64,000 nucleotides of DNA from Marivita lacus (GTDB lineage: Bacteria; Pseudomonadota; Alphaproteobacteria; Rhodobacterales; Rhodobacteraceae), in NCBI RefSeq assembly GCF_014637725.1, contig NZ_BMFC01000001.1, positions 870,632 to 934,631 on the forward strand. Reading direction: 5' to 3'. A model generated the notes under the pieces. That model was not told the DNA's origin. It made no database searches and was given only the letters and a program-made list of their open reading frames with translations. Positions 3,701 to 23,252 of this stretch are shown here, piece by piece. The position numbers were made by a program, and so were the translations under genes. Positions within the stretch are counted from its first letter, which is position 1. Each line of letters starts with the position of its first letter.

Positions 3701-6700
3701 ATGACACGACGTATGTCCTTGCACCCGAACGCGGTCGGGAAGGCTATGACCTTCTGTTCCGCGATATGCTGTCCCGCGGATTGGTGCCAAGCCGGATCGC
3801 CCATTTCTGGGGCATCACCAAAGACAACAGCCACCGTCCGGGCTCCAGCTTTTTCCAGCGCATGCAGGAACATGGGTTCTATTCCCTGATGTTCATCGCT
3901 CAGGCGATTGCGGATGACACGTTGCCAAAACCGACCCAGATCACCGTGTTCACCAATGGCGCTGCTGCTTTCGGGCAAGAGCGGCTCATGTCGCCCGAAA
4001 AGTCGATCATTGCCGGACCTGTGCGCGTCATTCCGCGTGAAATTCCGGGGCTAACTGTATCCTCGGTCGATCTGCGGCTTCCGGATGAACCTGCCAGGCG
4101 ACCTGTCCTGCGCCGCGCAAAAAGGAGTGACACGCATCAGGCGTGGGAGGATCTGACCGATCAGGTGATCGAAGAGATGATTGCCGATCCCTCTTCGGGT
4201 GTTGCGGTCTTTCGGTCTGGGCGTCGCTATGAACAATCGCTCCAGAAAACAGCATTGAGACCGACAGCCGAGACATCCGTTCAGCCGGGTGGCACATATC
4301 TGATCACTGGCGGATTCGGTGGTATCGGGCTGACCGTTGGCAAAGCACTCGCTGCCCAAGGCTGCACGTTGATTCTGACTGCACGTGACGCCTTGCCAGA
4401 ACGCGAGGTCTGGGATCGTTACCTGCAGCGGCACGCCCCGCAGGACAAACTTTCCCGCCGCATCCGTGCGGTACAGGAGCTCGAGGCATTGGGCGGACAT
4501 GTTCGTGCCTTTGCGGCCGATATCTGCAACCTGCCAGAGATGAAGCATGTCGTGGACGACACCCTCGCACGCCTTGGTCGCATCGACGGCGTGATCCATG
4601 CCGCCGGTGTGATGGAGGATGCGCCGCTCCTCGCAAAATCGACAGGGTCGATCGAAAAGGTTTTCTCGTCCAAGATCCACGGGACCAAGGTTCTGGATCA
4701 GCTTTTCCCGGACGGATCGACGGACTTCATTGCCCTCTTCGCGTCGTCATCGACACAGACAGCGCCCGCAGGCCAGATCGACTATGTCGCGGCGAATGAA
4801 TATCTGAACGCATATGCACATGCGCGCAGGGGTGACAAAACCAAAGTCCTCGCGATCAACTGGGGTATCTGGGCGGATGTCGGCATGGCTGCGACCGCCT
4901 TGGCAGACCGTATCGGTGATACCGATCCGATCAGCTTCAGCCCGGTTGATCTGCCGCTGCTCGACAAGACAGGGTTCGATCCGGCGGGCCACCGCCTTTT
5001 CGAGGCGCGGTACACCACCGACGATTGGTTCATTGACCAGCACAGGACCCGGCAGGGTGATGCCCTGTTCCCCGGGGCCGGTTACCTGACGCTGGCGTCC
5101 AAGGCGCTGCGCGGACAGGGCGAAACCAGCGGCTACGCAATCCGCAACATGACCTTCCTCAGGCCGCTTCACATCCCGGAAGCGGGCGCACGCGACATTC
5201 GTTTGCGGCTGTCCCGGCGGGATGACGGCTATCATATGGATGTACTGGGCAGCTGTATGTTGAACGGGCGTAACGGATTCGTGCCGATCGTCACTGCGGA
5301 CCTGTCGCTGATCCCCGAGATCCAGCCGAAACCGATCGACGTCGCCGCCATTCGAAAACGGTGTGGCGCTGCACGAAGGGTCACCACGGGCAAGAAACTG
5401 GATGCGGCGCAGGAAACGCAGATGGCCTTTGGTCCGCGCTGGAAGGTTCTGGACGCTTGCGCCTACGGCACTCGTGAGGGGATCGCGGATCTGTCTCTTG
5501 CAAGCGCAATGCAGGATGAGGAGCGCTTGCATTTGCATCCCGGTCTTCTGGACATTGCCACGGGCTGGGCGATGGAACTGATCGACGGTTATACCGGAGA
5601 CGAATTGTGGGTGCCCGTGTCCTATGACCGGGTGCATGTCTACCACCCGTTACCGGACCGCATCGTCAGTTGGGTCCGATCGTCCGGACCCAACCGCAAT
5701 GCCGACGAAACCGCGTCTTTCGACATCACCATTGCCATGCCCGACGGCACGGTCTGCATGGAGATCGGGGATTTTTCGATCAAGCGACTCTCCGACATGT
5801 CCGCGCTTTCAGCCCCGGTCAAGGTCAGCGCCTCTGAATTCGAACCTTCGGATTTCAGCAAAGCGACCCACCCGCTGTCCCCAGCTGAAGAGCGGTTCCA
5901 GCACAACCTGTCACAGGGCATTCGACCAGAGGATGGGACCGATGCCTTTCTGCGCGCGCTCGGTCGGACAGAACCGCAGATTTTCATCTCCTCGCTCGAT
6001 ATGGGCGCGCTGATCGAACAGGCCGGGATCGCCGGCGACGCCAAGTCGGAGGCGCAGAAATTCGATCGCCCGCAGCTTGATGGCGACTATGCCGCGCCCG
6101 AGACCGAAATCGAACGGACGCTGGCCGGCATCTGGGAAGATCTGCTGGGCGTGCAGAATGTCGGCGTCGAAGACAGCTTTTTCGACCTTGGGGGTCATTC
6201 GCTGATTGCCGTCCGCCTGTTTGCCAAGGTGCGCAAGACCTACAGCGTCGATTTCCCGATTTCGATCCTTTTCGAAGCGCCGACGATCCGGGCCTGCGCA
6301 TCGCTGATCAAGGACCGCACTGGCATCAGCGAAGATGCCGCCGGTCCCGCCGAAAAGAAACCCAAGCCGCAGACAAGGCGATTCAAGCATATCGTTGCGA
6401 TGCATGACGGCGAGGGCGGGCCGAAAGCGCCATTCTTCCTTGTTGCTGGAATGTTCGGCAACGTGTTGAACCTGCGCCATCTCGCCCAGCTTCTGGGTGC
6501 GGACCGACCGTTCTACGGGCTTCAGGCCAAGGGCCTTTACGGGGATGAGACCCCGCACCTGTCGATCAAGGATGCAGCGCGCGACTATATTGCCGAAATG
6601 AAGCAGGTACAGCCCGAAGGGCCGTATTATGTCGGTGGCTTTTCAGGCGGCGGGATCACCGCCTACGAGATCGCGCACCAGCTCGAGGCGATGGGCGAAG

Positions 6701-7248
6701 AGGTCGCGCTTGTCGTTCTGCTCGATACGCCTTTACCGCAACGCCGTCCGCTTAGCCGGAAAGACCGCCTGTTGATCCAGATGCAGGAAACCCGGCGCAA
6801 AGGTGTGTCATACCCGTTGGTGTGGCTGCGCAACCGGGTTCAGTGGGAAATCGAAAAGCGCAAGACGACCAGGGAAACCCGCACCGCGCACAGTTTCCAC
6901 AACGCCGAGATCGAACAGGCGTTCCTGCAAGCGGTTGGCACGTATGAGGTCGCACCCTGGTCCGGACGCATCGCATTGTTCAGACCGCCTTTGATGGGAA
7001 CCTGGTCAGTCTCCGGTGGCAAGCTGGTGAACCACGAACGCGCGTACCTGTACGATGACAATGACTGGGGGCAGCACGTGCCCCAGATCGAAGTATTTGA
7101 AGTGCCCGGAGATCATGACAGCATGGTTCTCGAGCCAAATGTGCGTGTTCTTGCCAGCTATTTGCGCAGGGTCATCACCACGACCGAAGCTGCCGTTGGC
7201 GGCAAGGGGCGCGTCTTGTCTTTCACCGCCACGGAGGCAGCGGAGTGA
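769..7248 (+). CDS. Single-module type I polyketide synthase (KS-AT-KR-DH-ACP-TE)
   Basis: A complete 2159-residue reducing PKS module. The ketosynthase spans about residues 12-442, with C187 in TACSTS and catalytic H323 and H363. The acyltransferase spans about 538-860 (S635 in GHSMG); malonyl versus methylmalonyl is not clear from the motifs. A structural subdomain precedes the ketoreductase (about 1175-1365; NADPH loop TGGFGGIG at 1180-1187, Y1339). The dehydratase is about 1390-1680 with H1425 and D1595; its His motif has one extra residue (H-x4-G-x4-P). The acyl carrier has S1811 in GGHSL. A type I thioesterase ends the protein (S1959 in GFSGGG, H2116). There is no enoylreductase or methyltransferase. 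A built-in thioesterase means it can release its own short hydroxy- or enoyl-acyl product, perhaps iteratively. It heads an operon with a GT2, an NRPS and an SGNH-like gene. Confidence 0.93.
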   Translation: MTNETTAPHSVADADIAIVGMSAHLPGAASLAQYWRNLRDGVSSIHRLTDEELTEAGVPPGLLRHRDYVPYAARLEQFDHFDAEFFGLSLKDAAIMDPQHRQFLECAWEALENAGHMPDRHDGRIGVFGGCGMGSYFYFNLCSNPDLVEGTGMFLLRHTGNDKDFLVTRVSHIFDLDGPSVNVQTACSTSLVATHYACQSLLNGECDMALAGGVTIELPHGRGYLYKENEILSPDGQCHAFDHRAKGTVFGSGAGVVVLRRLADALADGDHIWAVIKGSAVNNDGAAKAGYLAPSVEGQADAIAEAHAMAGVTADSIDYVECHGTGTYLGDPIEVAALTQAFAATSNKVGHCRIGSVKTNIGHLDTAAGVASLIKATMALHHHQMPPSLGFERPNPAIDFENSPFRVNDRLTDWPRRDHPRRAGVNSLGVGGTNAHVVLEEAPNAPPSEESDWPFQIITVSGRTKAALDANTARLAAHLRANTDQPFADVAWTLRTGRRAFEKRRLVVARDHLDAAMLLEQSGSRRVHTHDAMSRPDIVFLFPGGGAQYVGMARDLYETEPVFAEWIDRGLSHLETLDSRSIRDLWCPDPGNEAQATEALRQPSLQLPLIMIVEYALAQLWMSWGIQPAAVAGHSMGENTAACIAGVMSFEDCIGLVHLRGTLFDSVEKGGMLSVALPAEDLRPLLGDALDLGAVNSPGLSVASGPSAALMTLETELRHREIEFQRIPIDIAAHSRMLDPILDRFRSYLQKITLNPPTIPITSNRTGVMMTDEEATSPDYWVSHLRGTVQFTHCLDTLSDRQNRIYLEVGPGKALSALARQCEGIQATQVLSSLRHPEEEIEDDRHMLEVLGRIWALGGDFDWDQIWGNARRNRVPLPTYAFQRSRYFIEPGQPQTEKVSSFLTRIDGVENWGWTTAWRPKYASAPVEVRTELGKADLQSWLVFMDDAGVALAAAKRLRAAGHSIVEVWPGDSFARLNDTTYVLAPERGREGYDLLFRDMLSRGLVPSRIAHFWGITKDNSHRPGSSFFQRMQEHGFYSLMFIAQAIADDTLPKPTQITVFTNGAAAFGQERLMSPEKSIIAGPVRVIPREIPGLTVSSVDLRLPDEPARRPVLRRAKRSDTHQAWEDLTDQVIEEMIADPSSGVAVFRSGRRYEQSLQKTALRPTAETSVQPGGTYLITGGFGGIGLTVGKALAAQGCTLILTARDALPEREVWDRYLQRHAPQDKLSRRIRAVQELEALGGHVRAFAADICNLPEMKHVVDDTLARLGRIDGVIHAAGVMEDAPLLAKSTGSIEKVFSSKIHGTKVLDQLFPDGSTDFIALFASSSTQTAPAGQIDYVAANEYLNAYAHARRGDKTKVLAINWGIWADVGMAATALADRIGDTDPISFSPVDLPLLDKTGFDPAGHRLFEARYTTDDWFIDQHRTRQGDALFPGAGYLTLASKALRGQGETSGYAIRNMTFLRPLHIPEAGARDIRLRLSRRDDGYHMDVLGSCMLNGRNGFVPIVTADLSLIPEIQPKPIDVAAIRKRCGAARRVTTGKKLDAAQETQMAFGPRWKVLDACAYGTREGIADLSLASAMQDEERLHLHPGLLDIATGWAMELIDGYTGDELWVPVSYDRVHVYHPLPDRIVSWVRSSGPNRNADETASFDITIAMPDGTVCMEIGDFSIKRLSDMSALSAPVKVSASEFEPSDFSKATHPLSPAEERFQHNLSQGIRPEDGTDAFLRALGRTEPQIFISSLDMGALIEQAGIAGDAKSEAQKFDRPQLDGDYAAPETEIERTLAGIWEDLLGVQNVGVEDSFFDLGGHSLIAVRLFAKVRKTYSVDFPISILFEAPTIRACASLIKDRTGISEDAAGPAEKKPKPQTRRFKHIVAMHDGEGGPKAPFFLVAGMFGNVLNLRHLAQLLGADRPFYGLQAKGLYGDETPHLSIKDAARDYIAEMKQVQPEGPYYVGGFSGGGITAYEIAHQLEAMGEEVALVVLLDTPLPQRRPLSRKDRLLIQMQETRRKGVSYPLVWLRNRVQWEIEKRKTTRETRTAHSFHNAEIEQAFLQAVGTYEVAPWSGRIALFRPPLMGTWSVSGGKLVNHERAYLYDDNDWGQHVPQIEVFEVPGDHDSMVLEPNVRVLASYLRRVITTTEAAVGGKGRVLSFTATEAAE

Positions 7249-7253
7249 CCTGT

Positions 7254-8273
7254 ATGACGGACATCGTTGTCGTCGTTCTCAACTACAAGACACCGGATCT
7301 GGCCGTGCTTGCGGCACAGTCAGCCGCGGCAGCCATGGCCGATTTCGGTGGTGCGATCATCCTTGTCGACAACGACTCGCCCGACGACTCCTTCCAGCGC
7401 ATGACCGACCTGACGCGTTCCGCCGAATGGCCTGCGCATCTTGAGGTTCAGGTGTTGCAATCCGGTCGGAATGCGGGCTTCGGGGCTGGCAACAATTTCG
7501 GCATCCACGCCGGACTGGCGATCTGTCCGTCAGCCGAATTCATCTATATCCTCAACCCGGATGCACAGGTCGAACGCGATGCGATCACCACGCTTGTGAA
7601 CCATCTGCACGCGCATCCCAAGGTGGCCATCGCCGGTAGCTGGGTCTACGGAGAAACCGGCGAGGATCATTGCAGCGCCTTCCGCTTTCCGGGCCTTGCC
7701 TCGGAATTCGAAGCCTCGATCCGGCTGGGTCCGATCACGCGGCTGCTCAAGAAACACATGCTGCCACTGCATATTCCCGAAACATCCGGCCCGGTGGGCT
7801 GGATTCTCGGCGCGTCGATGCTGGCCCGGACAAGTGCCTTCAAAGAGATCGGCCTTTTTGACGAGACGTTCTTTCTCTATTTCGAAGAAACGGATCTGTG
7901 TCTGCGCGCACATCGCGCGGGTCACGAGGTGCATTTCGTGCGTGAAAGCCGCGTCTGTCATATCGGCTCTGTCTCGACCGGCATGGGCAGATGGACGCGC
8001 ACGCCCGCCTATTGGTACCAAAGCCGCTGGTATTATTTCAGCAAGAACCATGGCCGGGGCTACGCCATCGCTGCGACCGCTCTCAATGTCATCGGCACCT
8101 TGATCTGGCGGCTACGGCGCAAGATCGAGGGCAAACCGACGCCGGGCGCGCAGCGTTTCCTCAGGGACATGGTGACACATGATCTGCGCGCGCTTGTGCG
8201 TCCGACACCCGACGCGTCGATCCGCACCGTCGGCCTGCCGCAGGAACCTTCCCTTCAGACCAGCGTGGATTGA
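7254..8273 (+). CDS. Family 2 glycosyltransferase (rhamnosyltransferase-like)
   Basis: A cytoplasmic GT-A enzyme of 339 residues. It has the VDNDS nucleotide-sugar motif near residue 39, a GFGAGNNFG loop, the LNPDAQ metal-binding region, and the late LFDETFFLYFEETDLCLR block typical of WbbL/RfbF-type rhamnosyltransferases. The ATG at 7254 has GGAG eight bases upstream. An in-frame GTG at 7245 overlaps the PKS stop and would add three residues. It lies between the PKS and NRPS genes with almost no spacing, so it is certainly co-transcribed with them. That suggests the natural-product part and a sugar-transfer step belong to one pathway. Donor and acceptor are unknown. Confidence 0.88.
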   Translation: MTDIVVVVLNYKTPDLAVLAAQSAAAAMADFGGAIILVDNDSPDDSFQRMTDLTRSAEWPAHLEVQVLQSGRNAGFGAGNNFGIHAGLAICPSAEFIYILNPDAQVERDAITTLVNHLHAHPKVAIAGSWVYGETGEDHCSAFRFPGLASEFEASIRLGPITRLLKKHMLPLHIPETSGPVGWILGASMLARTSAFKEIGLFDETFFLYFEETDLCLRAHRAGHEVHFVRESRVCHIGSVSTGMGRWTRTPAYWYQSRWYYFSKNHGRGYAIAATALNVIGTLIWRLRRKIEGKPTPGAQRFLRDMVTHDLRALVRPTPDASIRTVGLPQEPSLQTSVD

Positions 8274-8276
8274 TCC

Positions 8277-11200
8277 ATGACCCAGTTCGACTGCATCATC
8301 ATCGGAGACGAAAGCCTCACACAGCATTGCGCCGAGACGCTCCTGTCTCAGGGACATGGTCTGGCTGCCCTCGTGACCGACAATCCGGATGTGGCGAAAT
8401 GGGCCAAGGGACACGGTATCCGCTGCGAAGGTCACGGTGCCGACCTCTCCACGCGGCTTGGGACTGTCACGGTGGATTGGGTGCTGAGCATCGCCAACCT
8501 CAAGATCCTGCCGCCCCAAATCCTGTCGCTTGGCCGGACAGGTGCGGTGAATTTCCACGACGGACCATTGCCCAGACGCGCCGGTCTGAATGCTCCGATC
8601 TGGGCGCTGATCGAGGGCGAGACCACACATGGCATCACCTGGCACCTGATCGACGAAGGTGTCGACACCGGTGATATCCTCGTTGAACGCAGCATTGACA
8701 TCTCGCCCCACGACACGGCGCTCACGCTGAACACCACGTGCTATGAGGCCGGGCTGACCAGCTTCACCGACCTCCTTCACGAAATGACCCACGGCCTGCC
8801 GAACCGCCGCGCTCAGGGCATGTCTCACCGCAGCTACCACGCGCTGACCGACAGGCCCGAGGCCAATGGCGTTCTCCGTTTCGACCAGCCTGCATCCGAT
8901 GCCGTGAGATTGATCCGCGCGCTGGATCACGGGACGTATTGGAATCCGCTTTGTACGCCGAAACTGGTCATTGGCGACCTGATCCTGAACATCGGTGCAG
9001 CATCACTGACGGAAAGCAGCGCCGCACCGGGCACCGTGATCGCCGTTGATGAGGCGTCCCTGACAGTCGCCTTCGCGGATGGTGCCCTGCAGATGAAGAA
9101 CCTGACCGGGACCGACGGCAAGTCCGCCAACCCGTCTAGCCAAGTCGCCTTGGGTGATGTCCTGCCGTCCCTGTCCGACACTAACCGCGCGGCGATCACA
9201 GACGCAATGCGCCCCGTGGCAAAGATGGAAGGGCACTGGCGTCGAATGCTCGCTCGTGTGGTGCCCCTGTCGCTGCCCTTCACCCGGTCCGATGATTCAG
9301 CACTCACCACACGCGATACTCTCATCCATTCCGAGCATCTGGGCGAGGCACTGGGCTGTCTGGCCCAACGTCTGTCACCGGAACACGCATCAGTTCTCGC
9401 ATTTTCCAATCCGCAGCTGATTGAAAATGCCCGCTTCGGGCTGATCCGCCCTTGGGTTCCGGTCCTCGCCGGGTCACTTGGCCAAACGCTTCCGCATGTC
9501 GAAACGGGCTTTGCAACCGATCTGCCCCTGCGGGATGCGGCTCTGTCGCGGCTTGAAACCCCCGCAATCGGAGTGTCGCAGGGTGCCGGACATATTCCCG
9601 GGACGGCGATCACCTTCACGGTGACGGGTCCGAACGTGACCGCGCATGTGGATCACGGAAAGATCGCACCCGATTTTGCCGATGTCTTGGTCCACCGTCT
9701 GAACTGGATCGCCGGACAACTGGCGAAAGGCACTGCACCCGCGGACATCGCGGCGCTGCCCCCGCAGGAACGCGAACATGTCCTGAGCACATTTAATGCG
9801 ACCGACGTGCCCCTTGATGGACCGACGACCATGCATGCCGCTTTTGAGGCGCAGGTTGCCCGCACCCCGGATGCGATCGCGCTCGTGTTCGAAAACCAAG
9901 AGGTCACTTTTGCAGCCCTGAACGAACGCGCCAACCGTGTCGCGCATACCCTGCGCGCGATGGGCGTGCAGCCCGACAGGATGGTCGGTCTGCATTGCCG
10001 CCGTGGTCCCGAGCTGGTCGCGGGGGCGCTGGGCATTCTCAAGGCAGGCGGCGCTTATGTTCCGCTCGACCCCGACTATCCGCGCGACAGACTCGCGCAT
10101 TACCTCACGGACAGCGGCGCATCTGTGGTCATCACCGAACACGCTCTGCATGCCGAATTGCCGGCGACCGAGGCTGACCTTCTTGTCATCGACCGCGATC
10201 CGCGTCTGGCCGTGGCCAAGACCGACAATCCCGATCCGGTCGCATCGCCCGATCATCTGGCCTACGTGATCTACACCTCCGGGTCGACCGGACTGCCCAA
10301 GGGCGTCATGGTCGAACATCGCAACGTGATGAATTTCTATGCGGGCATGGATGCGGTTGTTCCGGACCGCGACAACGCCGCTTGGCTTGCGGTCACCAGC
10401 CTCAGTTTCGATATCTCGGTGCTGGAACTCTTCTACACCATGGCCCGCGGCATCAAGGTTGTGCTGCCCAGTGCCAGCCAGCGAGGCATCATCTCGGGTG
10501 GTCCTGCCCGCAAGGGTGGCGATGGCATGGAATTCTCGATCTACTATTGGGGCAATGATGACGGCGTTGGTCGGGACAAGTATCGCCTCTTGCTGGAGGG
10601 CGCGAAATTCGCCGATGAAAACGGCTTTTGCGCCGTCTGGACGCCGGAACGCCATTTCCACGCGTTTGGCGGCCCTTATCCGAACCCGTCGGTCACAGGG
10701 GCTGCCGTTGCCGGTGTGACGAGGAACATCGGTGTTCGCGCCGGAAGCTGTGTTGCCCCGCTGCACCATCCCGCCCGCATTGCCGAGGAATGGGCTGTCA
10801 TCGACAACCTGACCAACGGGCGCGCGGGTATTGCCATCGCAAGCGGCTGGCAGCCCGACGATTTTGTCCTGCGCCCGGAAAACACGCCCCCCGACAACAA
10901 GCCCGCGATGTTCGAAGCCATCGACAAGGTGCGCAAGCTCTGGCGGGGTGAAGCCGTCGCCTTCCCGCGCAAGGACGGCCAGATGCACGAGGTAGTCACG
11001 CAACCGCGCCCTGTGTCAAAGGAACTGCCGATCTGGGTCACGACCGCAGGCAATCCGGACACATGGCGCGAGGCCGGGGCGAACGGGGCCAATGTGCTGA
11101 CGCATCTTCTGGGCCAGTCCATCGACGAGGTGGCCGACAAGATCACGATCTACCGTCATGCGCTGCGCGACGCAGGGCACAACCCGGATGACTTCACAGT

Positions 11201-12854
11201 CACGCTGATGCTGCACACCTGTCTGGCCGACACGCGCGATCAGGCCCGCGAGATTGCGCGCGAACCGATGAAGGAGTACTTGCGCTCTGCAGCGGGGCTG
11301 ATCAAGCAATACGCTTGGACCTTCCCGGCCTTCAAGAAACCGCAAGGCGTGAAAAGCGCGTTCGAACTGAACCTTGGCGACCTGAGTGAGGAAGACCTGG
11401 AAGGCATCCTCGATTTCGCGTTCGAACGGTATTTCAACGAGTCCGGCCTGTTCGGGACAATCGACGATGCCTTGACGCGTGTGCAACAGCTTCAGGCGAT
11501 TGGCGTCTCGGAAATTGCCTGCCTGATCGACTACGGCATTGCCACGGATCAGGTTCTGGCAGGTCTCAGACCTTTGGCAGAGGTCGTGCGCCACTCTGCG
11601 CCGTCGCCCAATCACGAAGACACCGACTTCTCCATCGCTGCGATGCTGTCCCGCCACAGTGTGACGCATATGCAATGCACCCCGTCCATGGCGCGGATGA
11701 TCGCGATGGACGACGATGCGCGCCCCAACCTGCGCGGATTGAAGCACCTCTTGCTCGGGGGTGAGGCTTTGCCGGGTGCCTTGGTGGCCGATCTCAGTAC
11801 CGCCACAGATGCCACCATCACCAACATGTATGGGCCCACCGAAACGACGATCTGGTCGTCGGCGGAAATCGCGACTGCACAGGACGCCACCGTCAATATC
11901 GGGCGCCCGATCGCGAACACGCAGCTTTATGTTCTGGATGACGATCTGAACCCGGTCGGGATCGGTCAGGAGGGCGAGCTTTGGATCGGCGGTGCCGGTG
12001 TCACCCGGGGCTACTGGCAGCGCGACGAGATGACAGCCGACCGGTTCCGCGACAACCCGTTTGCGCCGGGCCGGATCTACCGAACCGGCGATCTGGTCCA
12101 GCGCCGCGCCGATGGCCGTCTGAATTTCCTTGGGCGCGCGGACACTCAGGTCAAACTGCGCGGCTTCCGGATCGAACTGGGCGAGATTGAAAGCGCGATC
12201 CAGGCCTGTACCGGGATCACCAATGCAGTCGTTCTGGCCCGCGAAGATACACCCGGAGATGTGCGCCTTGTGGCCTATATCACCGCCACGACCGAGATCG
12301 ACAGCAAGGATCTGCGCGCAATCCTGTCGGCGCGGTTGCCCGACTACATGGTCCCGGCGCATGTGATCACGCTTGAGGCCTTCCCGGTCACGCCGAACCA
12401 GAAGATCGACCGCAAGGCCCTGCCTGCGCCCGGTATCATCGCTGTTCGGCCCAAGGCAAAAGAGCGGACTCAGGTCCATATGACCGGTCAGGCGGACGAG
12501 GCGTTGCGCTCGCGGATCGCCGCGATCTGGACGGAAGTGCTGGGGGTCACGACGATCCAACCCGAAGACAATTTCTTCGATCTCGGTGGGCATTCGCTTT
12601 TGGCGGTGCAGACCCACCGTGCCTTGCGGGACAGGCTGGACCTGGCAAAGCTGTCGATCACCGACATCTTCCAGTTCCCGACACTGTCCGCGCTGGCCGA
12701 TCGCGTGGCCAAGCTGGGCGGCGCGACACAAGGCGGTCAGGGATCAGCAGACGTCACTCCGATGTCGCAGCCTGCCCAGGTTGATCGCGCCGCGATCCGG
12801 AACGATGCCATGGCGCGCCGTCGCGCCATGCGCGCGCGGCGACAGGCATCATGA
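8277..12854 (+). CDS. NRPS-like protein: formyltransferase, adenylation domain interrupted by a luciferase-like monooxygenase, carrier
   Basis: Residues 1-300 resemble methionyl-tRNA formyltransferase: N92 and H94 in VNFHDGPLP, D130 in VDTGD, then an OB-like C-terminal part. Residues 310-495 look like the back half of a condensation domain with no HHxxxDG motif. The adenylation domain starts near 500 (YTSGSTG at 666-672, FDIS at 711-714). It is split at about 740-1106 by a flavin-dependent luciferase-like monooxygenase of the MupA/Atu3671 class, then resumes (YGPTETT at 1185-1191, YRTGD at 1268-1272, K1376). A carrier with S1440 follows; there is no thioesterase. The specificity positions D712, I713, L716, Q1133, L1159, G1161, M1184, I1192, W1193, K1376 match the classical glycine code at nine of ten. 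Predicted product: an oxidised and possibly N-formylated glycyl thioester. It starts three bases after the GT2 stop. Confidence 0.93.
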   Translation: MTQFDCIIIGDESLTQHCAETLLSQGHGLAALVTDNPDVAKWAKGHGIRCEGHGADLSTRLGTVTVDWVLSIANLKILPPQILSLGRTGAVNFHDGPLPRRAGLNAPIWALIEGETTHGITWHLIDEGVDTGDILVERSIDISPHDTALTLNTTCYEAGLTSFTDLLHEMTHGLPNRRAQGMSHRSYHALTDRPEANGVLRFDQPASDAVRLIRALDHGTYWNPLCTPKLVIGDLILNIGAASLTESSAAPGTVIAVDEASLTVAFADGALQMKNLTGTDGKSANPSSQVALGDVLPSLSDTNRAAITDAMRPVAKMEGHWRRMLARVVPLSLPFTRSDDSALTTRDTLIHSEHLGEALGCLAQRLSPEHASVLAFSNPQLIENARFGLIRPWVPVLAGSLGQTLPHVETGFATDLPLRDAALSRLETPAIGVSQGAGHIPGTAITFTVTGPNVTAHVDHGKIAPDFADVLVHRLNWIAGQLAKGTAPADIAALPPQEREHVLSTFNATDVPLDGPTTMHAAFEAQVARTPDAIALVFENQEVTFAALNERANRVAHTLRAMGVQPDRMVGLHCRRGPELVAGALGILKAGGAYVPLDPDYPRDRLAHYLTDSGASVVITEHALHAELPATEADLLVIDRDPRLAVAKTDNPDPVASPDHLAYVIYTSGSTGLPKGVMVEHRNVMNFYAGMDAVVPDRDNAAWLAVTSLSFDISVLELFYTMARGIKVVLPSASQRGIISGGPARKGGDGMEFSIYYWGNDDGVGRDKYRLLLEGAKFADENGFCAVWTPERHFHAFGGPYPNPSVTGAAVAGVTRNIGVRAGSCVAPLHHPARIAEEWAVIDNLTNGRAGIAIASGWQPDDFVLRPENTPPDNKPAMFEAIDKVRKLWRGEAVAFPRKDGQMHEVVTQPRPVSKELPIWVTTAGNPDTWREAGANGANVLTHLLGQSIDEVADKITIYRHALRDAGHNPDDFTVTLMLHTCLADTRDQAREIAREPMKEYLRSAAGLIKQYAWTFPAFKKPQGVKSAFELNLGDLSEEDLEGILDFAFERYFNESGLFGTIDDALTRVQQLQAIGVSEIACLIDYGIATDQVLAGLRPLAEVVRHSAPSPNHEDTDFSIAAMLSRHSVTHMQCTPSMARMIAMDDDARPNLRGLKHLLLGGEALPGALVADLSTATDATITNMYGPTETTIWSSAEIATAQDATVNIGRPIANTQLYVLDDDLNPVGIGQEGELWIGGAGVTRGYWQRDEMTADRFRDNPFAPGRIYRTGDLVQRRADGRLNFLGRADTQVKLRGFRIELGEIESAIQACTGITNAVVLAREDTPGDVRLVAYITATTEIDSKDLRAILSARLPDYMVPAHVITLEAFPVTPNQKIDRKALPAPGIIAVRPKAKERTQVHMTGQADEALRSRIAAIWTEVLGVTTIQPEDNFFDLGGHSLLAVQTHRALRDRLDLAKLSITDIFQFPTLSALADRVAKLGGATQGGQGSADVTPMSQPAQVDRAAIRNDAMARRRAMRARRQAS

Positions 12855-13804
12855 TGCGACGTGCTCACCTTGTTTTGGCCGGACTGGCCGCGATGGCCTG
12901 CGGTGCCGCAGCATGGGCCTATCTGTCCGGTCCAAAGCCCTTGTCGCCGGATCAACTCGCGGCGCGCTACGACACACCCCTCCCGCCGCCGAATGGCCCT
13001 TTGACGGTGTTTCATCTTGGCCACTCGCTCGTCGGGCGCGACATGCCCGCGATGCTGGCGCAATTGGCCGAGCATGATCACGCGTCCCAGCTTGGGTGGG
13101 GCACACCGCTCAAGGCCCATTGGGAACCCGACGAACCGATCCAGGGCTTCGATGTGGAAAACGCACATGACCATTACCGTGATGCCAAAGACGCCTTGGC
13201 CAGTGGTGATTTCGACGCCTTCGTGCTGACCGAGATGCTCGAGATCGAAGCCGCTATCAACTATTTCGACGCGCCGGATTACCTTGAGAAATGGGCTTCC
13301 GCCGCGCGCGAGGGCAACCCCGACATTCGTGTGTTTCTCTACGAGTCGTGGCACGACCTGAACGATCCGCAAGGCTGGCTGACGCGGCTCGATGAAGACC
13401 CGGTGCGCTATTGGGAGGGTGTTCTCTTGGCACAGGCCATGGCCTCTGCGCCTGAAGCCGGTCCGATCCACGTGATCCCGGCCGGTCGGGTGATCGCCGA
13501 ATTCGTCCGTCGGATCGAATCCGGCGATGGGGTCGACGGCATCACATCACGCGAAGACCTCTTTGCGCGGATGGATGACGGCACGCTGGATCCGATCCAT
13601 ATCAATGATCTGGGTGCCTATCTGGTCGCCCTGACCCATTACGCGGTGCTGTACCAACGCACGCCCGTTGGTCTGCCAAGGCATCTGGATCGCGCCGATG
13701 GCACCCCGTCAACCGCACCGGGGCAGGCTCTGGCCGATCTGATGCAACGAACAGTCTGGGACGTGGTCTCGACCTTGCCGATCACCGGCATTCCACAGAA
13801 CTGA
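12851..13804 (+). CDS. SGNH/GDSL-hydrolase-like exported protein
   Basis: 317 residues with a hydrophobic N-terminal segment (about 6-25) that acts as a signal peptide or membrane anchor, so the body should be periplasmic. The core begins with an F-H-L-G-H-S59-L block resembling the SGNH nucleophile block. Near the end D247-P-I-H250 resembles the DxxH block that carries the catalytic Asp and His. I do not see clear Gly and Asn blocks, so the assignment is partial. Its ATG overlaps the NRPS stop (ATGA), indicating translational coupling. SGNH proteins in polysaccharide loci often add or remove O-acyl groups. Acting on the PKS/NRPS-derived group or on the polymer is plausible but unproven. Confidence 0.75.
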   Translation: MMRRAHLVLAGLAAMACGAAAWAYLSGPKPLSPDQLAARYDTPLPPPNGPLTVFHLGHSLVGRDMPAMLAQLAEHDHASQLGWGTPLKAHWEPDEPIQGFDVENAHDHYRDAKDALASGDFDAFVLTEMLEIEAAINYFDAPDYLEKWASAAREGNPDIRVFLYESWHDLNDPQGWLTRLDEDPVRYWEGVLLAQAMASAPEAGPIHVIPAGRVIAEFVRRIESGDGVDGITSREDLFARMDDGTLDPIHINDLGAYLVALTHYAVLYQRTPVGLPRHLDRADGTPSTAPGQALADLMQRTVWDVVSTLPITGIPQN

Positions 13805-13836
13805 ACGCGTTTTGACTTTTCAGTGAAGCACGGTGC

Positions 13837-13853
13837 GGAAACACGTTGTTTCC
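13837..13853. promoter_or_regulatory. 17-bp dyad between the NRPS operon and the Wzz-like gene
   Basis: GGAAACACGTTGTTTCC is a perfect 7-bp dyad around a CGT spacer, 33 bases after the SGNH gene stop and about 127 bases before the Wzz-like start. A T-rich stretch follows, so it could be a weak terminator of the PKS/NRPS operon. Alternatively it is an operator controlling wzz. The 3-nt loop makes the terminator reading less attractive. Confidence 0.4.
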
Positions 13854-13979
13854 ATTTCTTTCGGTTTTTGGTGTCGCAATTCCGCCTTGATTTCACTAGA
13901 TTATGACTTGTCCAAGGCAGACGGTCACGATCTGACCCGAATTGGGCAAGGCGGGGGCCTTGGTACTGGAGTTGGACGC

Positions 13980-15314
13980 GTGCTGTATTTTCAGTCGTTC
14001 GAAGAGGTATTCTCCGCACTCAAGCGGCGTATGCGTCTCATCATGCTGATCACCTTTGTCGGGTGTGTCATTGCGCTTGTCATCGCGCTCTCCCGTATTC
14101 CGGTCTACAACGCCATCGCAGTCGTCCAGATCGAAGACGCGCAGGTCACAGGCACCAACACCAGTGTGGGTGCAATGGTCGACACCCGCGCCAGCCTTGA
14201 TACGCGCCGCACGGTTCAGTTGATCGAACAGCGCGTCATGTCCCGTGGCTCTCTGGTCGAGATCATGGAAAAGTACGATCTCTTTACCAATATTCCCAAC
14301 TTGACCCCGGCGCAGCGTCTGGATGCGATGCGCCAGTCCGTCTCAATCGAAGCCATCGGGACCGGTGAGCCCTGGCAGCCGGTGCAAGCCGTGTCCGGCA
14401 TGGTCATCACCGTCAACCTGAGCGATCCGCAAAAGGCAGCGGACGTGGCCAACGAAGTGTTGGCTCGCGTGATGGAAGAGGCCCGCAGCCGCAGCGTGGA
14501 TCGTGCCCAGGTCGAGCTTGAGTTCTTCAATGTCGAAGAGGCTCGCATCCGCGCCGAAATTGCAGCCGCCGAAGACGTGATCGCACAGTTCAAATCGGCC
14601 AATGCCGAGGTGTTGCCCGGCAACATCTCGGTTCTGCAGGGCGAACTGACCACGCTGAACGCCTCGCTTCTGACGCTGCGCCAGCAGGTCCTGACCCTTG
14701 AATCCAACAGCGCGCGTGTCCGTCCCGAAGAGCTGCAGCGCCAGATCAGCCTGTTGCAGGACCAGATCAACCTGATCGAAACGCGGACCGCCCGGATCAA
14801 CGAGCTTCTGGGCCGAGCGCCGACAGTGGAGCGTGAACTGGCATCGCTGCAACGCGAACTCACGCAGTTGAACGAACAGTTCACTGTGATCTCGCGTCGC
14901 AAGGCGGATGCCGAGATGAGCCAGAACCTCGCAGAACAGCGCCAACTCGCGCGGTTCGAAGTGCTGGAGCCCGCGATTGTCCCGGTCTACGCGGTGTCGC
15001 GCAGCAAGAGGTCGATCGCGATGATGGGCGGCGTGGCCAGTCTCATGCTTGCGGTCGGCGTCGCCTTTGTTCTTGAACTGATGAACCCACCGATCCGCAA
15101 CGCCGCTCAGATGGAGCGTGTTCTGGGCATCCGTCCGGTGATTTCAGTGCCCGTCCTTGAAGCGGCCAACGCAACCCCCTCTCGAAAAAAGGGAAAGGGC
15201 CTGAAGCTCATGTTGGGCGCGGTGATCGCGCTGCTTCTGGGGGTTATTGCCCTCGTGGCCAAACCCCTTGCCTCTTTGGCAGGCCTCACCCTGTCGCCGC
15301 GCAACGCGCAGTAA
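13980..15314 (+). CDS. Wzz/Wzc-type polysaccharide chain-length determinant protein
   Basis: Predicted 444-residue polysaccharide co-polymerase. One transmembrane helix lies near residues 20-40, followed by a long periplasmic coiled-coil region. A second helix with the MNPPI region and a third hydrophobic stretch lie at the C-terminus. The GTG at 13980 is chosen because GGAG sits eight bases upstream. An upstream in-frame ATG at 13833 would add about 49 residues that look non-coding and run through the intergenic dyad. Such proteins set polymer length and work with a BY-type kinase, which here is the convergent gene ending 3 bases away. The kinase is separate, as in CpsC/CpsD-type systems. 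Confidence 0.88.
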   Translation: MLYFQSFEEVFSALKRRMRLIMLITFVGCVIALVIALSRIPVYNAIAVVQIEDAQVTGTNTSVGAMVDTRASLDTRRTVQLIEQRVMSRGSLVEIMEKYDLFTNIPNLTPAQRLDAMRQSVSIEAIGTGEPWQPVQAVSGMVITVNLSDPQKAADVANEVLARVMEEARSRSVDRAQVELEFFNVEEARIRAEIAAAEDVIAQFKSANAEVLPGNISVLQGELTTLNASLLTLRQQVLTLESNSARVRPEELQRQISLLQDQINLIETRTARINELLGRAPTVERELASLQRELTQLNEQFTVISRRKADAEMSQNLAEQRQLARFEVLEPAIVPVYAVSRSKRSIAMMGGVASLMLAVGVAFVLELMNPPIRNAAQMERVLGIRPVISVPVLEAANATPSRKKGKGLKLMLGAVIALLLGVIALVAKPLASLAGLTLSPRNAQ

Positions 15315-15317
15315 GGT

Positions 15318-16481
15318 TCAATACGAGTAGTCGCCCGCCTCGATGTGTTCGGACTTGTTCAGAACCACGCCGAGCAGTGGGATGTTCTCACCGATGCGGC
15401 GCTCGGTTTCCTTGATGTCGTTTGCCTTGGTCAGACCACCAGCAGCCACGATCAGCAACGCGTCGATATGCGGCCGCATTGCGATCACGTCATCATTGAG
15501 CAGGGCAGGCGGCAGATCGAACAGCATGACGTTCGGCTGGAACTGGGTCTCGATTTCGTCAAACACAGCCTGCGTTGACGGGTCTTGCAACAGCTCTGCT
15601 GCATAGGGTTCGACGATTCCGTTGAATCCGATGGCGACATGGGACCCTGCCGCGATGGAATTCGGCGCAAAGCCCTGCAGATGCGCGTCCGGCGCAATGT
15701 CTCCGCGCAGCATGTCCCCGATGGATCCGGTGTCGGACACACCAAAAACCTTGTGCAGGCTCGGGCTGCGCATATCGAGATCAAGCAGCACGGTGCGACA
15801 GTTTTCCTGCCGCGACAGGCTGATGGCAAGGTTCGCCGCCGTAAAGGTCTTGCCGCAATCCTTGGTCGGAGAGGTGATTGCAACGCGCGTCCACCCGTTC
15901 TCGGACAAGGCCTGCAACATGCGCGTGCGCAGGATATCGAACCGCGTGTGTGACGGATCGGTGCGCAATGCGGTGATCACGTTTCTCTCTGCAAGGCGCT
16001 GCGCATCAAGCGGGAACCGGTCGATGCTTTTCCACGATGCTTCGGGATCAAAGACAGCTGCGCTTTGCGGTTTGGGATCGGGCGCACGGGCCAGCACCAG
16101 CGGCGCCTTTGGCTTCACTGACTGAGCGCGTTTGGCCTGTTCGGCGTGCGCATCTTCATCGCGTTTGCGCTGCGCATCCTCTTCTGCCTTTCGCGCGCGC
16201 TGCCTCGCCTCCAATTCGGCCTCGCGCGCCAGTCTGGCCTGATGCGCCTGCTCTTCAGCGGCTTTCGCGGCGCGGGCGCGCTTGGCCTCGCGTGCGGCCT
16301 GCCGCATGCGCTCTGCCTCAAGCTCGGCCTTGCGCTGCAACAACGCCTCTTTCTCGGCGATCAGCGCTTCAAGGTCTGCAATCGTTTGGTCCGGAGTGGC
16401 TGTCGTCGCACGCTGAGTCTGCGCGACAGCGTCCTCTGCCACGCGCCGTTTGCGGCGTTGGAACTTGGGCTGTTCGGTCAT
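15318..16481 (-). CDS. BY-kinase-like ATPase of exopolysaccharide synthesis (CpsD/CapB type)
   Basis: 387 residues. Residues 200-387 are a MinD-like BY-kinase domain. It has a variant Walker A (SPTKDCGKT at 204-212, K211), a Walker A' VLLDLDMRSP near 231-240, and a Walker B-like LFDLPPAL. Residues 30-120 are an unusually long Ala/Arg/Glu-rich charged coiled coil, followed by a linker. The C-terminus ends in GDYSY, so the tyrosine cluster that is normally autophosphorylated is reduced to two tyrosines. It should act in the cytoplasm on the Wzz-like partner encoded convergently 3 bases away. Because the genes converge, the two partners are not co-transcribed. A 20-bp palindrome lies about 80 bases upstream of its start. 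Confidence 0.85.
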   Translation of the reverse strand: MTEQPKFQRRKRRVAEDAVAQTQRATTATPDQTIADLEALIAEKEALLQRKAELEAERMRQAAREAKRARAAKAAEEQAHQARLAREAELEARQRARKAEEDAQRKRDEDAHAEQAKRAQSVKPKAPLVLARAPDPKPQSAAVFDPEASWKSIDRFPLDAQRLAERNVITALRTDPSHTRFDILRTRMLQALSENGWTRVAITSPTKDCGKTFTAANLAISLSRQENCRTVLLDLDMRSPSLHKVFGVSDTGSIGDMLRGDIAPDAHLQGFAPNSIAAGSHVAIGFNGIVEPYAAELLQDPSTQAVFDEIETQFQPNVMLFDLPPALLNDDVIAMRPHIDALLIVAAGGLTKANDIKETERRIGENIPLLGVVLNKSEHIEAGDYSY

Positions 16482-16617: not shown

Positions 16618-18726
16618 TCAGAACCCGAAAAGATTGGCTTTGCCAATCGCTTTCTCGATGAACCGCGTCTTGTCCTGTTCCGGTGACCAGCCGAGTTCCG
16701 CCTTGGGTTTCGTGTTCACGAAGGGTGACAGATGCGCCCGGCTTTTCCAATCCGCCAGTGACGGGCGGGTCAGCCCGTGCCGCCGCAGCGCGTAGACCTT
16801 GAGCACATGCTTGATCGCATCCGCCGCCCAGAACACCGTCAGGTTGCCCGTGCTGACCCCGATCCGCGCGCCAAGGGATTTTTGGATCGCATCGAAATAG
16901 CCCTTGCCCGACAACATTGGCTCACCGATCAGGTTGTAACTCTGGCCCACAGCATCGGGATGTTCGGCCATCAGGATCAGGCCGTCCGCCACATCGTCGA
17001 TCAGCACGAAGGGCAGGATGTTCAACCCATCCCCCCAGATCCGCACCGCGCCCGCGCCATGCCAACGCCCGATGCCCCAGTGCTGGAGCGGCCCGCCATG
17101 CCCTACCACGATCCCCGGTCGTGCGATCACCAATGGCAATCCGTCGCGCCGATGCATCTCCATCAGCCGCTTCTCGCATTCCGCCTTGGACCGCGCATAC
17201 ATGTTGCGGTCGCTCATGTCGGCGGCGAAGGGCACGTCTTCGGTGATCTTCTGCAGCGGCGAGGACATGTCATAGCTTGCGATCGTGCCGGTATAGACCA
17301 GCCGTTTGACACCTGCCTCTTGGCACGCGTCGGCAATCCGCACAGCCACGCCCACGTCATGCTCCAGCGCCTCGTCCCATGTCCCCTCTAGCGATCGGGC
17401 AAGGTTGTAGACCACGTCGATGCCCTGCATCGCCTCGACAAGCGCGTCCTTGTCGTAAAGCGAGACACCGACGGTCTCGACCTGATCCGGCAGGTCGGGG
17501 AACGGCCCGGATCGCCCCCGGCTCAACACACGCACATCCTGCCCCTTGGCCACCAGTGCTCGCGTGAGGGCGCGTCCGATAAAGCCGGTACCACCGATCA
17601 CCATGGCAGTCGGCTTCGGATCGCGGGTTTTCACCTTGGGTGCAGCCGGTTTCAGCATGTCCGCGGGGATCAATGCCAAGGTCTGATCCAGCGCGGACAT
17701 CACCTGCACCGCACTGGCCCCCGAGAAACGCACGTCCGGTTCTGTGCCCTTTCGCAGCGCGGTGTAGATCGCCGTGTTCATCCCCTGAAAGCTCAGCGCG
17801 TAAGGCGATTTGCGATTCAGCGATCTGACCTGGGTAAAGGTGTTGCCCAGACCTTCGCGCAGATGTTGCCAAGACAGGTCCAGCTGCCGGCGCAACGGAT
17901 TCAACACCAGATCGGACGCATTCTCGCGCTCGACCACCAGCGTGTCCGCCGCAAAGTCCAGCCGCGCCCGGCCGGACGACCCGCGCAAGGTCAGGGATCG
18001 GTCATCAATCGTCTCGACCATCGAAATGGTCAGCGTCACGTCAACATCCCCTGCCTGCGCGACAATGCGCCATGACTGGTACCGGGTGTCGTCACCCGGC
18101 AGGTCAACGGGTTTGGACAGCTGCACCGACCGGATGTCCGGCACGCCGAACAGATCGACGATGAATCCCATCAGGTGCGGGCCGAGTTCGAGCAGCAGGT
18201 TCTTCGGTTCCCGCAGCAGCCAGATGCCGAACGGCCCCGACCGCAGTGGCGCAAGCGGCAGGCACCAATGCACCTCGGCGACCGACACGCGACCCAGATC
18301 ACCTTTCGCCAGCATCCCCTTCAGACGGTCATAAGACGGCAGACCCATGAAGTTGTGGCCCGCATGAAACCGCACGCCATGTTCCTGCGCGACCGCCTCG
18401 ATCTCGGCTGTCTCGATGGCCGAAGTCGCCACCGGCTTTTCCACCAGCACATGCAGGCCCGCCTTCAGGCACTGGATCGCCAGCGGGTGATGCAGATGCG
18501 GCGGCGTCAGGATATGCACGGCGTCGCAGACCCCGGCCTCGATCAGGTCAGCCAGATCCCCGAAAGCGCGCACACCCAGCGCATCGGCCAGCGCCTTGCC
18601 CGCCGCCAGGGATGGATCGCAGACAGCAGTGATCTCGACCCCATCGGTGGCCCGCAACGCGTCGGCATGCCAGCTTGCGATGTACCCGGCCCCGATCAGA
18701 CCAACCCGGATTTTCGAAGACGCCAT
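16618..18726 (-). CDS. Gfo/Idh/MocA oxidoreductase fused to an NAD-dependent epimerase/dehydratase
   Basis: 702 residues in two domains. Residues 1-360 form a Gfo/Idh/MocA dehydrogenase: Rossmann GLIGAGYIASWHADAL near 9-24, and the VEKP catalytic-lysine motif. Residues 372-702 form an extended SDR: GGTGFIGRAL near 377-386, with Y510 and K514 of YxxxK. Both families oxidise, reduce or epimerise nucleotide-sugars using NAD(P), so the fusion probably performs two consecutive steps on one sugar. It is the last gene of the minus-strand operon, 13 bases after the GT2. Two genes encoding the same domain pair separately, in the same order, open that operon (23005-20958), so fusion after duplication is possible. 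Confidence 0.9.
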   Translation of the reverse strand: MASSKIRVGLIGAGYIASWHADALRATDGVEITAVCDPSLAAGKALADALGVRAFGDLADLIEAGVCDAVHILTPPHLHHPLAIQCLKAGLHVLVEKPVATSAIETAEIEAVAQEHGVRFHAGHNFMGLPSYDRLKGMLAKGDLGRVSVAEVHWCLPLAPLRSGPFGIWLLREPKNLLLELGPHLMGFIVDLFGVPDIRSVQLSKPVDLPGDDTRYQSWRIVAQAGDVDVTLTISMVETIDDRSLTLRGSSGRARLDFAADTLVVERENASDLVLNPLRRQLDLSWQHLREGLGNTFTQVRSLNRKSPYALSFQGMNTAIYTALRKGTEPDVRFSGASAVQVMSALDQTLALIPADMLKPAAPKVKTRDPKPTAMVIGGTGFIGRALTRALVAKGQDVRVLSRGRSGPFPDLPDQVETVGVSLYDKDALVEAMQGIDVVYNLARSLEGTWDEALEHDVGVAVRIADACQEAGVKRLVYTGTIASYDMSSPLQKITEDVPFAADMSDRNMYARSKAECEKRLMEMHRRDGLPLVIARPGIVVGHGGPLQHWGIGRWHGAGAVRIWGDGLNILPFVLIDDVADGLILMAEHPDAVGQSYNLIGEPMLSGKGYFDAIQKSLGARIGVSTGNLTVFWAADAIKHVLKVYALRRHGLTRPSLADWKSRAHLSPFVNTKPKAELGWSPEQDKTRFIEKAIGKANLFGF

Positions 18727-18739
18727 TCGTGTCTACCCT

Positions 18740-19708
18740 TTACTTGTATTCGATGATGCGCATTTGCGCGTGGCTCAGACGCCGCCAGTGAAAGCGGATC
18801 ATGCCAAGGACATTCGGAAACTTGGACAGTGTGAGGAAAACCGCGTGCGCGCGCGCCTCTTGGTCGGGCAGACCTTCGGCCTTCAACCCGCGCATCGTTT
18901 TCCAGTAGGACAGTGCATAAAGCCCTATCGCGAGGACCGGCACAACCGGCGACACAAACGCTCCGACAAATGCGATCACAGGCAGGATCACACCGTAGAC
19001 CCAGCCGCGCTGACGTTCACGCACGAAATACTCCGGATGCATGTGCCCGACCTGGGCAAACCCGTGCCCGGTGCGTTCGGCGCGTTTCCACCATTGCGCG
19101 AACCGCGTCATGTTCGCGTCATGCCCGGCCATTGGTTCCGCGATCCGCACCAGCCGCCACCCGGCCTTGCGCAACCGTGTGCAGAACTCGTCATCTTCGG
19201 CGGCGATCACCTTTGGATTGAACCCGCCCACCTTTTCAAAGGCACCGACGCGCACCATCATGTTGCCCGGACAGGTCAGGATCTCGCCCGCCGGGCGCGA
19301 CCATTCCACGTCGAACATCTGGTTGAACACACTCGCATCGCGCCGCATCTCGCGCTGTTGCCCGGTGACCAGCGCCAGCCCGTCCTCGGAGCGCAACCGC
19401 GCCTCGGCTTGTGCCAGCCAGCCCTCGGCCATGATGCAATCACCATCGAGGAACTGCACCACGTCAGGCGGCGTGTCCTGCGCCATCAGTGCCGTGAACC
19501 CCTCGTTGCGGGCGCGGGCTGCGGTAAACGGAACCGACATGTCCAGCCTGACAACGATGGCACCGGCCTGTTCAGCATTGGCAACACTCTGGTCACTTGA
19601 CCCGCTGTCCACATAGACCATGCGCCGCGCCTGCGGCGCGACAGAGGCCAGCGACGCGACCAGCTTGTCGCCTTCATTGCGGCCGATCAGGACGACATCC
19701 ACGCTCAT
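18740..19708 (-). CDS. Family 2 glycosyltransferase
   Basis: 322 residues. It starts MSVDVVLIGRNEG, with DSGSSD in the nucleotide-sugar site, the FLDGDC metal-binding motif, and EDDEFCTRLRKAG near the catalytic base. Hydrophobic segments at the C-terminus probably anchor it in the inner membrane. The start is set by an ATGA overlap with the upstream GT4 stop; a longer upstream frame exists but runs through the GT4 gene. It should transfer a sugar onto a lipid-linked intermediate of the local polysaccharide. Specificity cannot be inferred. Confidence 0.88.
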   Translation of the reverse strand: MSVDVVLIGRNEGDKLVASLASVAPQARRMVYVDSGSSDQSVANAEQAGAIVVRLDMSVPFTAARARNEGFTALMAQDTPPDVVQFLDGDCIMAEGWLAQAEARLRSEDGLALVTGQQREMRRDASVFNQMFDVEWSRPAGEILTCPGNMMVRVGAFEKVGGFNPKVIAAEDDEFCTRLRKAGWRLVRIAEPMAGHDANMTRFAQWWKRAERTGHGFAQVGHMHPEYFVRERQRGWVYGVILPVIAFVGAFVSPVVPVLAIGLYALSYWKTMRGLKAEGLPDQEARAHAVFLTLSKFPNVLGMIRFHWRRLSHAQMRIIEYK

Positions 19709-23005: not shown

Positions 23006-23252
23006 GCCGCGACCCTCACAGGACGGCGGACAATACGGTTTCGGATGCGTTTCACAGGCTGCTCATGTGGTTTGTGCGTCTTTTCCGCAGGGCGTAGACC
23101 ATCCAATCATGGTCATAATTCGACAAACGCCGGATTTCTCGTGTGTCTTAGGATAAATTTTGCAGGAATGTCTTGATTTTGCAGCGCCGTGGTCGCGATT
23201 TGGCCGCATGACGCAGGCAGAAATCCCCAAAGTCACGATACAGGAGGCACCG

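Follow-up and report, generated by a model that had tools for sequence, protein, structure and literature searches.

In the conglobatin and oxazolomycin pathways, CongA and OzmO load a polyketide synthase (PKS) with an F-A(Gly)-PCP module, i.e. a formyltransferase (FT), a glycine adenylation (A) domain and a peptidyl carrier domain (PMC4504003). Luciferase-like monooxygenase (LLM) domains have also been described within glycine adenylation domains (PMC11342130, PMC10204066). Here, we analysed a window of 64,000 nucleotides from Marivita lacus (Rhodobacteraceae; assembly GCF_014637725.1, contig NZ_BMFC01000001.1, positions 870,632 to 934,631 of the forward strand). One of its genes, at 8277..12854, encodes a protein that we name FTA, in which a formyltransferase is joined to an adenylation domain that has a glycine-type code and is split by an LLM. 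The gene is paired almost without exception with that of a PKS. We propose that FTA is a formyl-glycine loading module of the CongA/OzmO kind with a built-in oxidase, feeding a single-module PKS whose product is linked to exopolysaccharide (EPS), a reading to which we give slightly better than even chances.

Part of this locus has been seen before. A cluster of PKS, glycosyltransferase and nonribosomal peptide synthetase (NRPS) genes was reported as 'conserved amongst roseobacters', its product unidentified as of 2016, and was credited to Martens et al. 2007 (PMC5014874). An unknown NRPS-like/T1PKS hybrid occurs in 18 of 37 species in another survey, where Roseibaca domitiana has NRPS and PKS genes of 4,527 and 6,333 nt, respectively, whose gene numbers differ by two (PMC10584327), probably the same trio. 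Phaeobacter inhibens has a PKS, Inhi_1972, and an NRPS, Inhi_1974 (PMC4062626), a numbering consistent with one gene between them. The conservation of the trio is already in print; the loading role of a formyltransferase/LLM protein was not found described. Our literature search, with most subscription journals outside it, found no glycine module that is both split by an LLM and fused to a formyltransferase, no role of such a module as PKS loader and no product named for the PKS-glycosyltransferase-NRPS cluster.

Domain organization of FTA

The features of FTA are, in window coordinates:

8277..12854, + strand: FTA, FT-(degenerate C lobe)-A(Gly)[LLM]-PCP, 1525 aa, open reading frame intact (Pfam and NCBIfam)
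8277..9167, + strand: formyltransferase domain, residues 1-297, triad N92/H94/D130 (Pfam, alignment, structure model)
9168..9812, + strand: apparent degenerate C-terminal lobe of a condensation (C) domain, residues 298-512, no HHxxxDG (profile match)
9810..10481, + strand: adenylation domain part 1, residues 512-735, up to motif A4 (Pfam, alignment)
10533..11588, + strand: embedded LLM of the MupA/Atu3671 family, residues 753-1104 (NCBIfam, structure)
11628..12431, + strand: adenylation domain part 2 and A-sub, residues 1118-1385 (Pfam, alignment)
12489..12728, + strand: peptidyl carrier domain, Ser1440 (Pfam, alignment)
12792..12848, + strand: conserved basic C-terminal tail, residues 1506-1524, possible docking element (conservation)

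Pfam placed Formyl_trans_N at residues 56-157, Formyl_trans_C at 197-287, AMP-binding in two stretches, Bac_luciferase at 764-1078, AMP-binding_C at 1303-1376 and PP-binding at 1413-1477. An earlier note on this DNA, made from the sequence alone, had described an adenylation domain interrupted between motifs A4 and A5 by an LLM. This is borne out by Pfam, by alignment and by the NCBIfam model TIGR04020 (MupA/Atu3671 LLM), whose match of 478 bits, with the cut-off at 244, settles the LLM family. The insert is real, although the span first given for it (740-1106) was slightly wide: the LLM covers residues 753-1103 and the adenylation domain picks up again at about residue 1110. The closest solved relative of the LLM is the OX domain of PuwE (6ket; 338 bits, TMt 0.85, 43% identity). 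Profile models for formyltransferases and for luciferase-like monooxygenases, both proposed by the note as a check, match FTA.

The linker at residues 298-512 resembles the C-terminal lobe of a condensation domain in degenerate form, with profile matches to such lobes in McyB (1.4e-6) and EntF (0.045). Because this lobe is degenerate, without a Pfam match and without an HHxxxDG motif, no condensation activity is expected; neither Condensation nor Thioesterase was matched by Pfam anywhere in FTA (E up to 0.001), in agreement with the note on both counts. The LLM is the most conserved part of the protein (0.85) and the linker at 298-512 has the lowest conservation among the domain-sized parts (0.45). 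The basic tail, which may dock to the PKS, has a mean conservation of 0.76 and is preceded by a stretch at 0.36; distant homologues end in other basic tails.

We followed these features across two sets of loci. One is the best 80 of 575 loci, found by two peptide patterns (one in the adenylation domain, one inside the LLM), so that the presence of the LLM in this best-80 set is conditioned by the search; the unconditioned sample consists of 295 genomes of the family, one per genus. The other set has 40 loci from 37 genomes and overlaps the first in part, so counts from the two are not independent. Locus listings include matches of at least 45 bits, or at least 60 bits for the counts of trio presence and of polysaccharide genes.

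The specificity residues in a motif-anchored alignment, with positions picked from known motif anchors and not from a numbered GrsA alignment, are D712, I713, L716, Q1133, L1159, G1161, M1184, I1192, W1193 and K1376, i.e. DILQLGMIWK. Nine of these positions are invariant across 14 sequences (the window and 13 homologues) while position 1159 is L, F, M or Y, and the code is DILQ[MLFY]GM[IV]WK in 80/80 loci of the best-80 set. The best solved match for the pocket segment is DhbF (5u89), which has Q, G, L, I and W at aligned positions and whose module 1 we take to be glycine-activating. The code thus lends sequence support to an adenylation domain of the glycine type, as the note had proposed from the same ten residues.

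The catalytic triad that the note had recognised in the formyltransferase, N92, H94 and D130, lines up with that of LgrA. It is N-H-D in 79 of the best 80 loci, with a gap in the last one, and formyltransferase and adenylation domain lie within one open reading frame at all 80. A wider set of 30 rows has the N-H-D triad in 27; the exceptions are the genomes G113 and G742, described below, and G1040, in which a condensation domain stands where the formyltransferase would be. The best PDB matches of the formyltransferase are 10-formyl-THF dehydrogenase and Fmt, and a model of formyltransferase and linker (pLDDT 90.4) has a fold matching Fmt/ArnA. The structure prediction suggested by the note for the split domain gave a model that aligns end to end with whole adenylation domains, spanning the insert, but with moderate confidence (pLDDT 73.7, pTM 0.53).

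A conserved polyketide synthase partner

Two genes precede that of FTA:

769..7248, + strand: type I PKS partner, KS-AT-psiKR-KR-DH-ACP-TE, 2159 aa, with the ketoreductase ahead of the dehydratase (Pfam)
7245..8273, + strand: family 2 glycosyltransferase that lies between PKS and FTA and completes the trio (Pfam)

The note had taken FTA as a self-contained module, a view that finds no support given its conserved partner, a PKS with ketosynthase (KS), acyltransferase (AT), ketoreductase (KR), dehydratase (DH), acyl carrier (ACP) and thioesterase (TE) domains. The active-site motifs of all six look intact by eye. Among the 295 family genomes, 107 match both FTA and PKS and 175 match neither. Only two have FTA without a PKS match (G163 and G289, each a 73% complete assembly), and 11 have a PKS match without FTA. 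As the latter are only 39-46% identical, we take them for general KS-AT similarity and not for orthologues. Both genes were found at 80/80 loci of the best-80 set and at 39/40 of the 40-locus set, and the glycosyltransferase was there too at 79 and 37. Under a stricter adjacency rule, the PKS lies close upstream in 72/80 and the glycosyltransferase in 66/80 of the best-80 set. The exception in the 40-locus set, L052, has a stand-alone LLM gene only. Such a conserved KS-AT-KR-DH-ACP-TE partner makes it most likely that FTA starts a polyketide chain.

Gene order varies among distant relatives. In G684 and G742, the gene directly downstream of FTA encodes a KS-AT-KR-DH-ACP-TE protein, and Pfam Condensation was matched neither in this protein nor in FTA. 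A KS-AT-KR-DH-ACP-C-A-PCP-TE protein is encoded downstream of FTA in G160, Aliiroseovarius M344 and G1051. Five other loci (Aminobacter, Shinella, Neorhizobium, G912 and G1014) have divergent FTA and PKS genes. We built a KS tree from matches of at least 350 aligned residues, with 25 chosen partner loci (G113 left out) and midpoint rooting. A branch (100/99) separates the 25 partner KS from 14 other KS, including a second one from G160. Identity to the window PKS is 57-75% for KS, 35-60% for AT and 25-39% for DH when G113 is left out; the decayed G113 has 36% for KS and 31% for AT. This grouping and the high KS identity would fit a ketosynthase tuned to an unusual starter, without being proof of it.

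The stand-alone LLM gene of L052 (9427-10602, - strand, G260:C65) is MupA-like and lies outside any NRPS, next to what by eye are a PHA synthase-like and a DegT-type aminotransferase-like gene. Two genomes, G142 (L054, L055) and G148 (L056, L057), have two FTA copies each in differing surroundings, and at L054 a C-A-PCP-TE protein comes after FTA. In Seohaeicola (L114, 14607-19284), FTA is followed by GT61, a separate adenylation domain and a PLP-dependent decarboxylase of the ornithine/DAP type.

Distribution and natural variants

A strong FTA match was found in 13/17 genomes of the same genus, that of the window included, with full-length homologues 65-79% identical. In the family it was found in 109/295 genomes (near full length in 92 of the 109 by our own count), in the order in 64/149, all 64 from the same family, in the class in 7/385 and in the phylum in 16/398; these genome sets overlap, and some distant matches, such as G1040, have no formyltransferase. 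The idea of FTA as a lone novelty was rejected on the family count. Among the matches listed, the closest loci include Marivita geojedonensis (75%) and a Marivita metagenome-assembled genome (78%), and Roseovarius, Shimia, Sulfitobacter, Loktanella, Gemmobacter, Paracoccus and two Hydrogenophaga are also present. Plasmid records matched in 29 cases, 11 of them with at least 80% query coverage, and add Ruegeria, Shinella, Neorhizobium and Aminobacter. Hydrogenophaga is nested within the Rhodobacteraceae in the tree of adenylation domains (99/96), which suggests transfer. Its two loci, L117 and L123, have the trio in Betaproteobacteria and are nested in the Rhodobacteraceae in the KS tree as well. 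L123 also encodes an extra NRPS of two modules; the first of its AMP-binding domains ends in a DIP2-like C-terminus and is read as FAAL-like.

Three natural variants bear on the role of the domains. G113 (L049, G113:C17:141001-161000) has lost the LLM, the formyltransferase triad and the carrier serine, and a stop breaks its PKS, while the adenylation code is still present. We regard this locus, from its sequence, as decay because it is nested among LLM-bearing forms and has other losses alongside that of the LLM. G101 (L050, G101:C42:16501-36500; FTA at 7905-11327) has no LLM and keeps the formyltransferase, the carrier serine and the code DILQLGLIWK. Its PKS (1676-6985) has no DH, and the KR serine and tyrosine are absent by eye. 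This one case hints at a connection between the LLM and reductive processing. In G742 (L190, FTA at 6498-11006, colinear with the PKS), the formyltransferase histidine is replaced by phenylalanine (N-F-D), and formylation may be dispensable in some lines.

Polysaccharide context

The other annotated genes around the trio are:

1..661, + strand: oligosaccharide flippase (Wzx-like), C-terminal part, start before the window (Polysacc_synt_3 below cut-off, TuaB-like)
12851..13804, + strand: unclassified protein with a 4-base overlap with FTA, SGNH-hydrolase-like by eye (no Pfam or NCBIfam match)
13833..15314, + strand: Wzz-type chain-length determinant (Pfam, NCBIfam)
15318..16481, - strand: P-loop ATPase, read as BY-kinase type (CbiA/ParA match)
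16618..18726, - strand: Gfo/Idh/MocA oxidoreductase fused to an NAD-epimerase (profile match)
18740..19786, - strand: glycosyltransferase family 2 (profile match)
19705..20961, - strand: glycosyltransferase group 1 (profile match)
21878..23005, - strand: Gfo/Idh/MocA oxidoreductase (profile match)
23160..24038, + strand: WecG/TagA glycosyltransferase (profile match)

In Rhodobacteraceae, the FTA-PKS pair usually sits in EPS loci. At least one of flippase, Wzz, kinase and WecG was matched at 66/80 loci of the best-80 set and at 29/40 of the 40-locus set. We compared 20 FTA loci, each with a control stretch from its own genome at a distance of about 138-148 kb from FTA (20 in all); two of the 20 genomes are of the genus of the window, and the window's own genes served as queries. 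Polysaccharide genes were found at 17/20 FTA loci and at 0/20 control stretches; a looser rule (two or more EPS-type genes) gave 16/20 and 1/20. The Aminobacter MSH1 and Ruegeria conchae plasmids also have polysaccharide neighbours according to the annotation of their records. The oxidoreductase-epimerase fusion at 16618-18726 is 58-92% identical at many FTA loci.

Proposed function and alternatives

We infer the following chemistry. The adenylation domain would activate glycine, as its code suggests, and load it on the carrier. The formyltransferase, given its family and intact triad, would N-formylate glycyl-S-PCP, as happens in LgrA and has been proposed for CongA. The embedded LLM would hydroxylate the glycine alpha-carbon, an activity reported for MtaG/MelG and proposed for SolF. 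To judge from gene arrangement and KS phylogeny, the unit would then be handed to the KS of the neighbouring PKS, which would add one or more malonyl units, reduce and dehydrate with KR and DH, and release with its TE. At its smallest, the product would be a C4 acyl group, e.g. 4-formamido-4-hydroxybut-2-enoyl. In Rhodobacteraceae, it may be attached to, or made together with, exopolysaccharide; this link is suggested by the glycosyltransferase between the two genes and by the flippase, Wzz and glycosyltransferase genes around them. The possibly oxidised formyl-glycyl unit raised by the earlier note is supported at the level of sequence. The whole proposal, in which two enzymes convert glycine to a formylated and alpha-oxidised starter, lengthen it by a single ketide and, at least in Rhodobacteraceae, supply the short acyl product to build or decorate exopolysaccharide, and which would hold for about one-third of Rhodobacteraceae genera, some Hyphomicrobiales and Hydrogenophaga, is tentative and, taken with all its parts, rather doubtful.

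Several observations weigh against a formylating, oxidising PKS loader tied to polysaccharide. The PKS lies upstream of FTA in the window, colinearity being found only in distant relatives, and no docking helix is obvious by eye at the PKS N-terminus. The KS is usually the best conserved domain of a PKS, so its high identity is weak evidence for tuning. The LLM is not strictly required, since G101 lacks it with formyltransferase and carrier intact, and G742, whose colinear pair is one of the two cleanest, may have lost formylation. If C-N cleavage of the MtaG type followed, formylation would be wasted. Matches to flippase, Wzz, kinase and WecG are absent at 14/80 and 11/40 loci, and no polysaccharide locus was seen in the annotated M344 stretch. 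Finally, ArnA and FdtF, which are nucleotide-sugar enzymes, rank before LgrA among the PDB matches of the formyltransferase. This ranking would suit a formyltransferase acting on a sugar of the EPS locus, an option that we disfavour because formyltransferase and adenylation domain never part in the best-80 set.

The nature of the oxidation allows other products. After alpha-hydroxylation, the carbinolamide could break as in MtaG, leaving a glyoxylyl-S-PCP starter and formamide or ammonia. The LLM family and the same A4-A5 position of the same kind of domain in the myxothiazol and melithiazol pathways (PMC11342130, PMC10204066) speak for this outcome, but there is no upstream peptide to become an amide, the conserved formyltransferase would yield formamide only, and the hydroxyl of SolF has been proposed to be retained. 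We hold cleavage to be unlikely. FTA as an MtaG-type terminator was rejected, as it has neither a TE nor a working condensation domain. Oxygenation of the nitrogen before formylation, giving an N-formyl-N-hydroxyglycyl (hydroxamate) unit, seems very improbable: a formyltransferase and a flavin oxygenase do share one protein and either could act first, but for relatives in glycine modules the described action is on carbon, and none of the 14 different window proteins scanned was recognised as the product of a siderophore gene. FTA could also work independently of the PKS, its activated formyl-glycyl-type unit being put straight on a sugar; a separate lipid or acyl group for this polysaccharide would then come from the PKS. 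The EPS locus, the glycosyltransferase between the genes and the PKS having its own TE would all fit, yet FTA and PKS almost always co-occur and are colinear at five loci without a match to this glycosyltransferase, one of which, M344, has no annotated polysaccharide locus; such independence appears distinctly unlikely.

Seen as a formyl-glycine loader with an oxidase, the NRPS has a concrete, testable candidate for its starter unit and a PKS partner, and the EPS context points to where the product might be sought. If true, two known module types are joined in one protein, and assembly-line chemistry serves the polysaccharide coat in a large marine bacterial group.

Comparison with known systems

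LgrA, of linear gramicidin, resembles FTA in its FT-A-PCP start module, with an aligned triad, but is followed by a second NRPS module and has no LLM; its first adenylation domain is specific for valine. The OX domain of PuwE, the closest solved LLM, is part of a hybrid polyketide/peptide synthetase and is not known to sit in a formylating glycine module.

MtaG and MelG (myxothiazol, melithiazol) and the crz-like MOx share with FTA a flavin monooxygenase in a glycine adenylation domain, inserted in MtaG/MelG between A4 and A5 as in FTA. The earlier note had drawn this parallel, and it stands for the embedded LLM, of the same kind, but fails for the terminal amide: MtaG and MelG extend a peptidyl chain that ends as an amide, whereas FTA has no upstream chain, no working condensation domain and no TE, and has a formyltransferase. 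SolF (solanimycin) also has a glycine adenylation domain with an embedded monooxygenase, and a retained alpha-hydroxyglycine was proposed for it. Unlike in FTA, the insert of SolF lies between A8 and A9 of an elongation module, and its description, as available, has no formyltransferase.

CongA and OzmO share with FTA the formyltransferase, the glycine adenylation domain and the PCP, and are known to start a PKS, in lines that include a cyclodehydratase (CongE/OzmP). They differ in that the available descriptions have no luciferase-like monooxygenase and in their longer polyketides with an oxazole. The roseobacter cluster has PKS, glycosyltransferase and NRPS genes side by side, as at 769-12854 of the window, and Leisingera sp. 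JC1, the strain of that report, has the trio (L125). The cluster lists a phosphopantetheinyl transferase (PMC5014874), for which there is no gene beside FTA in the window; two genes of this family lie elsewhere in the genome, and one lies close downstream at 59/80 loci of the best-80 set.

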